Source: Microbacterium sp. 1.5R (GTDB lineage Bacteria; Actinomycetota; Actinomycetes; Actinomycetales; Microbacteriaceae). From it: 64,000 nucleotides of DNA. The notes below the pieces were generated by a model. It was not told the DNA's origin. It worked only from the letters and a program-made list of their open reading frames with translations, and searched no databases. Every line of letters starts with the position of its first letter. The first letter of the stretch is position 1. Shown here piece after piece: positions 44,405 to 46,709 of the stretch. The position numbers and the translations under genes were made by a program. The DNA lies in assembly GCF_001889265.1 (NCBI RefSeq), contig NZ_CP018151.1, positions 3,100,001 to 3,164,000 on the forward strand, in the 5' to 3' direction.

Positions 44405-44509
44405 TCAGAAGTCCCAGTCGTCGTCTTCCGTCGCCTCGGCCTTGCCGATGACGTACGACGATCCCGAACCCGAGAAGAAGTCGTGGTTCTCGTCGGCGTT
44501 CGGCGAGAG
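44405..44509 (-). pseudogene. Displaced 3' end of nrdF (34 codons plus stop)
   Basis: The minus strand encodes the last 34 residues of NrdF (from L-S-P-N-A-D-E-N-H through E-D-D-D-W-D-F) followed by TGA, with no upstream gene. It matches the intact nrdF end at 45731-45833 over 103 bp with two synonymous differences, and the intact copy uses TAA instead. It is best read as the original chromosomal end of nrdF, cut off by an insertion that supplied a replacement end. Confidence 0.85.
44407..44509. repeat. Attachment-site repeat, nrdF-distal copy
   Basis: One of two 103-bp direct repeats (101 of 103 identical) bounding the element. The other is 45731-45833. The first 61 bases are identical without a break, so the crossover core is probably there. 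Confidence 0.85.
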
Positions 44510-44592
44510 CGCGGGAGCAAGAGCGCCGCGAGAAACCGCTACATTTCGTATCCGCTCAGCCCCCGTCCGATCCGGCTCGAATCCGTGAACCT

Positions 44593-44608
44593 GTGGGCAA
44601 AATGTGGG
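44593..44608 (+). repeat. Possible integrase arm site 1
   Basis: GTGGGCAAAATGTGGG, 84 bp inside the distal attachment repeat. It differs by one base from 45622-45637, in the same orientation. Confidence 0.45.
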
Positions 44609-44680
44609 CGCGCCGCGTTCGTTTCATGCCCCCCCAGTCGTCGTACTCAAGCTTGCGGCGAGCGGAGTCAAGGCTGCCCC

Positions 44681-45132
44681 TACAGTGCAGCACCGCACCC
44701 TCAGGGATATCGAGCTCTTCACGCGGCACATAGTCGATCCGGTCGGCACGCCGAAGTCTGGAGCGTCCCGCGAGATCCCTATTCCGCCCCACCTTGTGAA
44801 ACGAATCGCGCGACTGTGCGAGGGCAAATCGCCCGACGACTTCCTGCTCGGCGACGGTGCCCTACCCGCACGCGACCAGCGGATGGTTCGTGAAGACGGT
44901 TCGCAGCGCCCACCTGATCGACAAGAGGACCCCGGCAATCACGCCGCACGACCTTCGCCACACTGCCGCGTCACTTGCCGTCTCATCCGGCGCCCACGTG
45001 AAGGCCGTACAGCGCATGCTCGGACACGCCTCGGCAGCTATGACACTCGACGTCTACGCGGATCTGTTCGACGACGATCTGGAGGCAGTGGCGCAAGCGA
45101 TGAGCGCCGCGCGAGCCACGGCCGCCTCATGA
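44681..45132 (+). pseudogene. Tyrosine integrase C-terminal fragment, frameshifted
   Basis: One frame gives L-R-D-I-E-L, then T-P-K-S-G-A-S-R-E-I-P-I-P-P and D-D-F-L-L-G-D-G-A; near 44857 the match moves to another frame, giving T-P-H-D-L-R-H-T-A-A-S, V-Q-R-M-L-G-H-A-S and a tyrosine in D-V-Y-A-D-L-F. These are the box II residues (H-x-x-R, L-G-H, Tyr) of phage-type tyrosine recombinases. The N-terminal domains and the first catalytic Arg region are missing or unreadable. It cannot make an active integrase as it stands. It faces away from the distal attachment repeat. Confidence 0.8.
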
Positions 45133-45238
45133 CACGCCGTCGTTTCATTGGTATTGCAAAGCAGGGCATACCTGGCGCATGCTTGGTGTTGTTCTCGCTG
45201 TGATCGACCGCAAGGGATCTGACCGCCAACGACAAAGA

Positions 45239-45258
45239 CCCCCGACCGAAGTCGGGGG
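45239..45258 (-). terminator. Terminator of the small element gene
   Basis: CCCCCGAC (45239-45246) and GTCGGGGG (45251-45258) pair with a CGAA loop. On the minus strand the stem is followed by TCTTTGTCG, so it ends the gene at 45287-45478; it also lies after the integrase remnant. Confidence 0.75.
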
Positions 45259-45286
45259 CCTATGCCTTTCCTAGAGGTTCACCGGA

Positions 45287-45478
45287 TCAAGCTGCAGCAA
45301 CAGCTTCAACCAGGTAGCGGTACGCGCATTCTCCCTTGCGGTCGATGCACGGCGGGAACGTAGCTCCGCGCTCGTGGCGCGTGACGACTCCGTACTGGTC
45401 GGCCCAGTCTCCGTCGAACGGAACCCGCTGGCCCGTCTTCCAGGCCCCATCGGGACCCATTGGCATATGCATGGTCAT
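45287..45478 (-). CDS. Small element-borne protein, YjzC-like
   Basis: 63 residues. The pattern K-T-G-Q-R-V-P near residue 14, then W-x-D-Q-Y-G-V-V and G-A-T-F-P-P-C near 39, resembles the YjzC family of small Bacillus-type proteins (K-T/P-G-x-x-V-P ... G-E-x-F-P-P). Cys44 and Cys51 could bind metal. The ribosome site AGGAGGTGA is a perfect anti-16S match, stronger than any other in the window, so the gene is probably well translated. It has its own terminator and is the only intact gene of the element. The function is unknown and the family call is tentative. Confidence 0.7.
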   Translation of the reverse strand: MTMHMPMGPDGAWKTGQRVPFDGDWADQYGVVTRHERGATFPPCIDRKGECAYRYLVEAVAAA

Positions 45479-45532
45479 ACTTTTTCACCTCCTCTCGGTC
45501 TGAGCGCGTGCCGGCGCTGGCACGACAAAGAG

Positions 45533-45564
45533 GAGGGGTCCCCACAGATGCGTGGGGACCCCTC
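45533..45564 (-). terminator. Strong hairpin upstream of the small element gene
   Basis: Perfect 13-bp arms (45533-45545, 45552-45564) flank a 6-nt loop; on the minus strand the stem is followed by CTCTTTGTCG, like the terminator at 45239. It may end a lost upstream gene or act as an attenuator for the small gene. Confidence 0.65.
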
Positions 45565-45621
45565 AGTCGGGTTGTCAAGGAGCGCGACGTTCCCGTCGCG
45601 CCGACTCCATGTCGATGAAGC

Positions 45622-45637
45622 GTGGGCAAAACGTGGG
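45622..45637 (+). repeat. Possible integrase arm site 2
   Basis: GTGGGCAAAACGTGGG, 94 bp before the nrdF-proximal attachment repeat and nearly identical to 44593-44608. Similar G-rich repeats are expected to bind integrase arm domains. Confidence 0.45.
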
Positions 45638-45728
45638 TACGAGCGTTGTGTACTGCCCTCCACTCGAGCGTGATCCCATCGCTGCTCATCTTCACCCCCT
45701 GATACATATTCAATGCTGACCTGGCTTT

Positions 45729-46709
45729 TTAGAAGTCCCAGTCGTCGTCTTCCGTCGCCTCGGCCTTGCCGATGACGTACGACGATCCCGATCCAGAGAA
45801 GAAGTCGTGGTTCTCGTCGGCGTTCGGCGAGAGAGCCGACAGGATCGCCGGGTTCACGTTCGTGACGGTCGAGGGGAACATCGCTTCGTAGCCGAGGTTC
45901 ATCAGCGCCTTGTTGGCGTTGTAGTGCAGGAACTTCTTGACGTCCTCGGTCAGGCCGACGCCGTCGTAGAGGTCCTGCGTGTACTGCACCTCGTTGTCGT
46001 AGAGCTCGAACAGCAGGTTGAAGGTGTAGTCCTTCAGCTCCTGGCGGCGCTCCTCGGTCTCCTTCTCGAGACCCTTCTGGAACTTGTAGCCGATGTAGTA
46101 CCCGTGCACGGCCTCGTCACGGATGATGAGGCGGATCAGGTCGGCCGTGTTCGTGAGCTTCGCCTTCGACGACCAGTAGATCGGCAGGTAGAAGCCCGAG
46201 TAGAACAGGAACGACTCGAGCAGCGTCGAGGCGACCTTGCGCTTGAGCGGGTCGTCGCCCTGGTAGTAGTCCATGATGATCTGAGCCTTCTTCTGAAGGT
46301 TCGGGTTCTCAGTGGACCAGCGGAACGCCTCATCGATCTCCTTCGTCGACGCGAGCGTCGAGAAGATCGAGGAGTAGCTCTTCGCGTGCACAGACTCCAT
46401 GAACGCGATGTTCGTGTACACGGCCTCTTCGTGAGGCGTGATCGCGTCGGGGATCAGCGAGACGGCGCCGACGGTGCCCTGGATCGTGTCGAGCAGCGTC
46501 AGACCGGTGAAGACGCGCATGGTGAGCAGCTGCTCATCGGGCGTGAGCGTGTTCCACGACTGGACGTCGTTCGACAGCGGCACCTTCTCAGGCAGCCAGA
46601 AGTTGTTCACCAGGCGGTTCCAGACCTCGAGGTCCTTGTCGTCCTGGATGCGGTTCCAGTTGATCGCCTGAACGCTGTCGACCAGCTTGAGCGGGGGGTG
46701 AGGAGTCAT
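45729..46709 (-). CDS. nrdF: Class Ib ribonucleotide reductase, small subunit
   Basis: 326 residues, full length for NrdF. Metal ligands include E-x-x-H in [10 protein letters not shown] (with the radical Tyr nearby) and in [12 protein letters not shown]. The C-terminal tail ends D-D-D-W-D-F, the NrdE-docking peptide. It forms the di-metal tyrosyl radical used by NrdE to reduce ribonucleotides; class Ib enzymes use Mn with help from NrdI. Its last 34 codons and TAA stop come from the integrated element, yet the protein sequence is unchanged. It follows nrdE by 33 bp. Confidence 0.96.
45731..45833. repeat. Attachment-site repeat, nrdF-proximal copy
   Basis: This copy forms the functional 3' end of nrdF. 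It differs from 44407-44509 at two positions, both silent in the reading frame, and in the stop codon just outside the repeat. Confidence 0.85.

Follow-up and report, generated by a model that had tools for sequence, protein, structure and literature searches.

The 3' end of nrdF, the gene encoding the small subunit of class Ib ribonucleotide reductase (RNR), appears to serve temperate phages of Microbacterium as an attachment site. In the window (the whole 64,000-nt stretch of the Microbacterium sp. 1.5R genome that was analysed), a duplicated nrdF end was judged, with a probability of about 95%, to mark what remains of a temperate prophage, namely its two ends, the interior having been deleted so that 1.2 kb is left. 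A tyrosine recombinase of the phage_integrase family would have inserted this prophage at the nrdF 3' end. According to the proposed mechanism, the phage attP would carry a copy of the last ~27 nrdF codons (35 in the window copy) plus the stop, flanked by two arm-type sites. Recombination of this copy with the host nrdF end would yield an intact nrdF ending in phage sequence and would push the original end, together with its terminator, to the far side of the prophage, and an internal deletion would then have removed all but the two ends. Comparison with related genomes and viral contigs brought out duplicated tails, adjoining integrases, long elements, empty sites and attP-like contigs. The initial annotation, made from the sequence of the window alone, had read the feature as a mobile element using the nrdF 3' end, a reading now supported by the element of a related genome (G015; labels in G denote genomes and labels in L denote loci) as well as by the long elements, the empty sites and the attP-like contigs.

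The duplicated nrdF end

A direct repeat of 103 bp with silent differences had initially been described at the nrdF 3' end. By repeat search it was found to span 106 nt with 97% identity, the copies at 44407-44512 and 45731-45836 lying 1,324 nt apart (Table 1); three differences are present, all silent, two of which fall inside the 103 nt first noted. Just outside the repeat the stop codon differs, the intact nrdF having TAA and the displaced copy TGA. When the repeat sequence was searched against its own genome (3.62 Mb, one contig) at E ≤ 0.001, it was found in two places only, both in the window. The RNR count of the genome, which covers the families PF00268 (small subunit) and PF02867 (large subunit), came to one match for each, the former being nrdF itself. 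The gene is presumably essential. Through its C-terminal tail, which also contains the radical-transfer tyrosine, the R2 subunit binds the large subunit, and as loss of this tail would inactivate the enzyme, selection for its restoration is to be expected. The putatively swapped tail aligns nearly unchanged to the NrdF chains of solved structures, for example 8j4x, and nrdF is likely to remain functional in lysogens.

Table 1. Features of the nrdF region (positions in the window)
Feature	Position	Strand	Basis
nrdF, class Ib ribonucleotide reductase small subunit, intact, 326 aa	45729..46709	-	PF00268 E 3.5e-97; TIGR04171 RNR_1b_NrdF
Putative nrdF-side attachment site (hybrid), last codons of intact nrdF, stop TAA	45731..45836	-	direct repeat
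Arm-type site P' on the side of the integrase, 90 nt beyond the nrdF stop, differing from the motif at one position	45622..45638	.	
G+C-rich hairpin between arm site and 63-aa ORF	45535..45562	.	similar hairpin, same place in G015 element
63-aa ORF, cargo of this element subgroup	45287..45478	-	identity to G015, G224 and G398 ORFs
Tyrosine integrase remnant, C-terminal part, frame change near 44860, convergent with nrdF	44733..45132	+	PF00589; phrog_1 E 1e-19; G015 alignment
Distal arm and sequence probably joined via internal prophage deletion	44513..44732	.	G015 alignment start
Arm-type site, distal side (P), exact motif match	44593..44609	.	
Putative distal attachment site (hybrid), displaced nrdF end, stop TGA	44407..44512	-	direct repeat
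Terminator-like hairpin adjoining nrdF at empty sites, here 1.3 kb away from the gene	44350..44387	.	sequence and relatives

That the intact gene now ends in the element's own copy (TAA), with the TGA end displaced beside the terminator, had been proposed from the window and agrees with the comparison to G015 and to empty sites. Most relatives agree with the displaced copy, and not with the nrdF copy, at two of the three silent differences, which means that the crossover cannot be placed from the window pair, and reading host versus phage ancestry along the gene end yielded no crossover position. It is also conceivable, if unlikely, that the two ends are real but that the TAA arose as a host mutation, exchange having taken place at the very end of the gene with little or no coding sequence swapped. 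Consistent with this, the last 61 nt before the second base of the stop are identical in the window pair, so that no crossover can be placed within them. However, 25 of the 29 loci compared in the genus (Microbacterium, of which 366 genomes were searched) end in TGA like the displaced copy, unlike the TAA of the window nrdF, and the sequence following the nrdF-side stop is element sequence related to that of G015. Acquisition of the gene end from a prophage is thus the preferred reading.

The remnant between the repeats

The presence of a tyrosine integrase remnant within the 1.2 kb, as initially annotated, was borne out by a match of 44857-45132 (+) to PF00589 (E 2.1e-11) that covers only the last part of the profile (112-169 of 172). 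The element nearest to the window by alignment was that of G015, whose integrase has no stops and whose two ends lie on different contigs. Against this integrase the remnant aligned as two segments lying in different frames, with 76% and 86% identity, and the N-terminal part, looked for in the window by the same comparison, was not found. The window copy is therefore incomplete, and it is a dead remnant. At the DNA level, 44743-45900 aligns over 1,170 columns, with 84.7% identity, to the G015 sequence that leads from the integrase end into nrdF, the last ~170 nt of this stretch being nrdF; the alignment to the integrase end begins only at 44743 (DNA) or 44733 (protein).

Two candidate arm-type sites, which the initial annotation had overlooked along with the 63-aa ORF and the extra 5' length of the window repeat, were identified next to the repeats. 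The 15-nt core pattern of the site at 44593-44609 occurs in two places only in the 64-kb window, namely the two arm sites, and the window likewise contains exactly two copies of TGGGCAAAAYGTGGG, each just inward of a repeat. The 63-aa ORF is 98% identical in the G015 element, 84% in G224 and 86% in G398, and it was found in only 5 of 361 genus genomes; searches of Pfam, PHROG and NCBIfam gave no match for it at the thresholds applied. No phage structural or lysis genes were found in the 1.2-kb window copy.

Occupied and empty sites in related genomes

The 108-nt nrdF end matched 357 of the 366 genus genomes, with a second match in 51 besides the genome of the window. On re-search of these 51, a second tail copy above 75 bits on the same contig and strand was obtained in 11, with the copies 39.5-45.9 kb apart in six (G006, G033, G062, G084, G212 and G319), 18.4 kb in G097 and 2.2-4.4 kb in G104, G149, G224 (3.2 kb) and G353. 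Second matches in G040, G060, G128, G148 and G316 (76-82% identity, on other contigs or strands) were taken as presumed nrdF paralogues and left uncounted, G057, G210, G269 and G275 were excluded from the count as ambiguous, and the weak match in G028 was rejected, as it was not a tail on alignment; apart from G015 and G072, the remaining second matches were below 46 bits. A homologous integrase C-terminus (66-79% identity) adjoins nrdF in 8 of the 20 fetched loci, these being the six long elements, G097 and the G224 remnant, and an integrase of the nrdF clade also adjoins the gene in G015, G072 and G120. Together with these three and the window, at least 15 of the 366 genus genomes (11 + 4) are or were occupied. 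The search for integrases next to nrdF and for duplicated nrdF ends that had been suggested at the outset thus found both in the genus. A search with the G033 integrase found matches in 163 of the 366 genus genomes at E ≤ 1e-70. Every one of the top ten (≥441 bits) adjoins nrdF, and the eleventh (G288, 426 bits) adjoins tRNA-Arg. Integration at nrdF is probably catalysed by the adjoining integrase.

Outside the genus, same-strand tail copies 1.2-3.2 kb apart were seen in 3 of 23 re-searched genomes, all from other genera of the family (L194 in G398, L193 in G673 and L200 in G483), and in the G398 locus (3.2 kb) the 63-aa ORF is accompanied by an arm-like site and a weak trace of an integrase. 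When the whole family was searched with the integrase profile, 47 of 398 genomes matched at E ≤ 1e-125, and none of the 19 new loci checked had an nrdF tail nearby. In genome_contigs the same profile gave at least 80 loci; of the 80 listed, two adjoin an nrdF tail, both in records titled Microbacterium.

The gene content of the longer elements was assessed from 28 proteins, taken from sequence at the element ends. The ends of the G033 and G006 elements encode integrase, repressor, anti-repressor, exonuclease VIII, ParB-like, tail-fibre and endolysin families, and the G097 element encodes a tape-measure protein. Several of the scanned proteins had no family match or belonged to a family of unknown function, and no terminase or capsid gene was seen among the proteins scanned from these end parts.

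Empty sites were represented by L009, L021 and L023, in which NrdF is 98.2-99.7% identical. There nrdF ends in TGA and is followed directly by the same hairpin that follows the displaced copy in the window, which is the arrangement predicted for an unoccupied site.

The short spacing in some genomes raised the possibility that the window holds a small integrase-bearing island or satellite and not the remnant of a full prophage. A short form does recur, G224 and G398 (each 3.2 kb) sharing the 63-aa ORF and an integrase fragment or trace. In G015, however, the ORF at 98% identity sits beside the stop-free integrase, with the distal tail on another contig, and the window, G224 and G398 have yielded only C-terminal integrase pieces. 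Such an island is consequently considered very improbable, and remnants of longer prophages are favoured.

As a separate observation, the duplicated tails of G104 (L049), G353 (L046) and G149 (L047), which have no integrase match, enclose defence-like genes: nSTAND3 with Mrr (PDC-S73), AbiLi/AbiLii-like genes with PDC-M48B, and an RmrA-like HTH-M78 gene. No arm site was found in G353 and G104.

Anatomy of the proposed attachment site

Distal tails carry approximately the last 27 nrdF codons plus the stop, the window copy being the longer one noted above. The 13 other distal copies aligned comprise ten that start at AACCACGACTTCTTC or close to it and three that are shorter; the window repeat reaches 22-24 nt further 5' than those ten. 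The distal tail of L044 has an altered end, and displaced copies have decayed in L044 and L049, as expected if they are no longer coding. In L051, the distal tail of G072, the tail end is tandemly repeated after the stop, with GACGACTGGGACTTCT present twice.

A lambda-type attP, the substrate of a tyrosine recombinase, consists of a core between two arm-type sites. Compared with this model, binding at the arm sites of the nrdF elements is suggested by their position and by a single covarying pair. With up to four mismatches allowed, 10 of 12 elements have the 17-mer arm motif GCCCACNTTTTGCCCAC (in nrdF coding orientation) 89-91 nt beyond the nrdF stop (missed in L046 of G353 and L049 of G104), and at 10 of 14 distal sides it starts 109-111 nt before the tail, or 119 nt in the window and G097 (missed in L046, L047, L048 and L049). 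As a control, 400 stretches of 394 nt were drawn at random from the fetched loci, and 19 of them reached the same level, a number in which real sites are included. In G033 both arms have undergone the same four changes, giving the altered motif GACTACATTTTGACTAC. The motif was also exact in 4 of 19 checked loci near integrases outside the nrdF clade. All 12 tail pairs are identical over ATCGGCAA and over GACGACTGG, either of which could contain the exchange point; strand exchange perhaps occurs at ATCGGCAA, within the inverted repeat TCGGC-AAG-GCCGA.

Candidate attP sites: viral contigs and isolated phages

A degenerate tail pattern detected 82 stretches in IMG/VR, from which 80 loci were examined. 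In 15 of these 80 the tail stands without an nrdF body by the criterion used, in several because the contig seems to end there. L217, L239 and L209 have a tail without nrdF body together with both arms, one starting 110 nt ahead of the tail and the other 89-90 nt past the stop, which is the structure expected of a free attP; in L217 and L239 the attP-like site is adjoined by a clade integrase. IMG/VR contig 3300031084_000020 (40.7 kb) has two tails (L233 and L240), apparently near both of its ends. Integration and excision at nrdF are inferred from the comparisons. In L054/L210 (IMG/VR 3300028172_000178), a clade integrase lies on the other side of the tail in the same direction, and a TIR-domain gene follows the stop.

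The G033 integrase matched 11 IMG/VR loci, two of which have an adjoining nrdF tail. Among the matches listed for isolated phages, the best was 44.9% (Gordonia phage Finkle), while 2 of 1,942 isolated-phage records, outside the 40 listed, reached 60-80% in their best match. The isolated phages yielded none with this attP: the 85-nt tail matched 69 phage records, none of them named for Microbacterium, and among the best 40 of the 69 there were 39 annotated RNR genes and one unannotated match. Searches of phage and plasmid collections with the 1.56-kb region matched its nrdF-end parts (best 20 of 104 and best 20 of 96, respectively), and the features named in these matches were RNR genes, in some cases with a neighbouring gene.

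A simple segmental duplication of the nrdF end, which later gained an unrelated integrase fragment, was the alternative raised in the initial annotation, should the neighbours of nrdF never carry integrases. The window remnant alone measures only 1.2 kb, and in G353 a duplication of tail plus terminator occurs with neither an integrase match nor arms, as this account would have it. Integrases do, however, recur beside nrdF, as complete homologous genes and within the 39.5-45.9 kb elements with phage genes, the arm sites lie at nearly fixed distances, and viral contigs carry the tail and both arms with no nrdF, all of which renders a mere duplication barely credible next to prophage insertion. 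Attachment at a tRNA gene was rejected, as the window contains none.

Integrase phylogeny

In a tree of 62 integrases (14 beside nrdF and 48 of the 107 others at hand), the nrdF-adjoining rows formed one clade (SH-aLRT 100). A tree of 134 rows placed 21 nrdF rows, the window remnant included, in one clade (99); in this tree 69 rows, in a total that counts the nrdF clade, lie beside a tRNA gene, and 42 have no assigned site. Identical pairs are among the rows (L065/L094 and L068/L222). The sister group varies, consisting of tRNA-Arg/Thr integrases in the 62-row tree and of L174, without assigned site, in the 134-row tree. The IMG/VR loci L226 and L247 represent a distant lineage beside nrdF, with integrases ~41% identical to the query, NrdF 82-83% identical and, on the nrdF side, an arm motif that is almost the same. 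As they stand apart in the 134-row tree, the nrdF-site label needs two changes on it. An independent origin of this second lineage is nevertheless no more than possible, since a single clade of all nrdF rows was not rejected in a 51-row set (p-AU 0.351).

A wider proposal may be drawn from these results, though it must be regarded as speculative and rather improbable as a whole. The nrdF 3' end would be a repeatedly chosen actinobacterial attachment site, used by two distant and possibly independent integrase lineages, and the only RNR detected in lysogens would have a phage-supplied tail. With the conserved SSYVIGKA tyrosine and the C-terminal peptide both part of the swapped tail, dNTP supply may come under phage influence, by integration state or by tail allele. 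The site would also collect integrase-less defence cassettes flanked by tail copies, perhaps moved in trans.

Relation to known systems and significance

Gene-restoring integration into the 3' ends of protein genes is already known, to judge from the available part of sources such as PMC13313380. There, Rhodococcus phage Sleepyhead is described as having a 90/91 match to the extreme 3' end of an acyl-CoA dehydrogenase family gene, the presumed attB. Like the nrdF elements, it is a temperate actinobacterial phage reconstructing a protein-gene 3' end, but its target gene differs and it is a single phage, whereas the nrdF case concerns an integrase clade and an RNR gene. The GInts of P. aeruginosa resemble the nrdF elements as mobile islands at the end of an RNR gene (alpha subunit). 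By the description available they differ in the subunit, in a duplicated gene and in a four-gene recombination system, whereas the nrdF elements carry phage-type genes. Integrases targeting tRNA and tmRNA genes, including those of the M. abscessus attB sites (PMC10654092 and PMC8092301, as far as available), are tyrosine integrases that restore a 3' end in the same way; the nrdF target differs in being a protein-coding gene. In the portions accessible, tRNA sites are used in PMC6950654 and PMC4234937, PMC11319209 names no target gene, and the description of the inducible Microbacterium phage vB_MoxS-R1 does not say where it integrates. The open-literature search turned up no account of attachment at nrdF, and island survey tables could list it; according to the available part of TIGER/Islander, 43.4% of islands lie in protein-coding sequences, so nrdF may be in its tables without comment. 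The initial suggestion of a notable target class stands in part: as far as was searched nrdF is a new target, but, 3'-end restoration of protein genes being known already from the accessible part of PMC13313380, it is not a new target class.

With these elements, nrdF, a class Ib RNR gene, would join the genes used as phage attachment sites. The integrase clade, its arm motif and the attP could serve integration vectors in Microbacterium. Furthermore, a clade that targets a protein gene among relatives often found at tRNA genes would offer a system in which to study target change.
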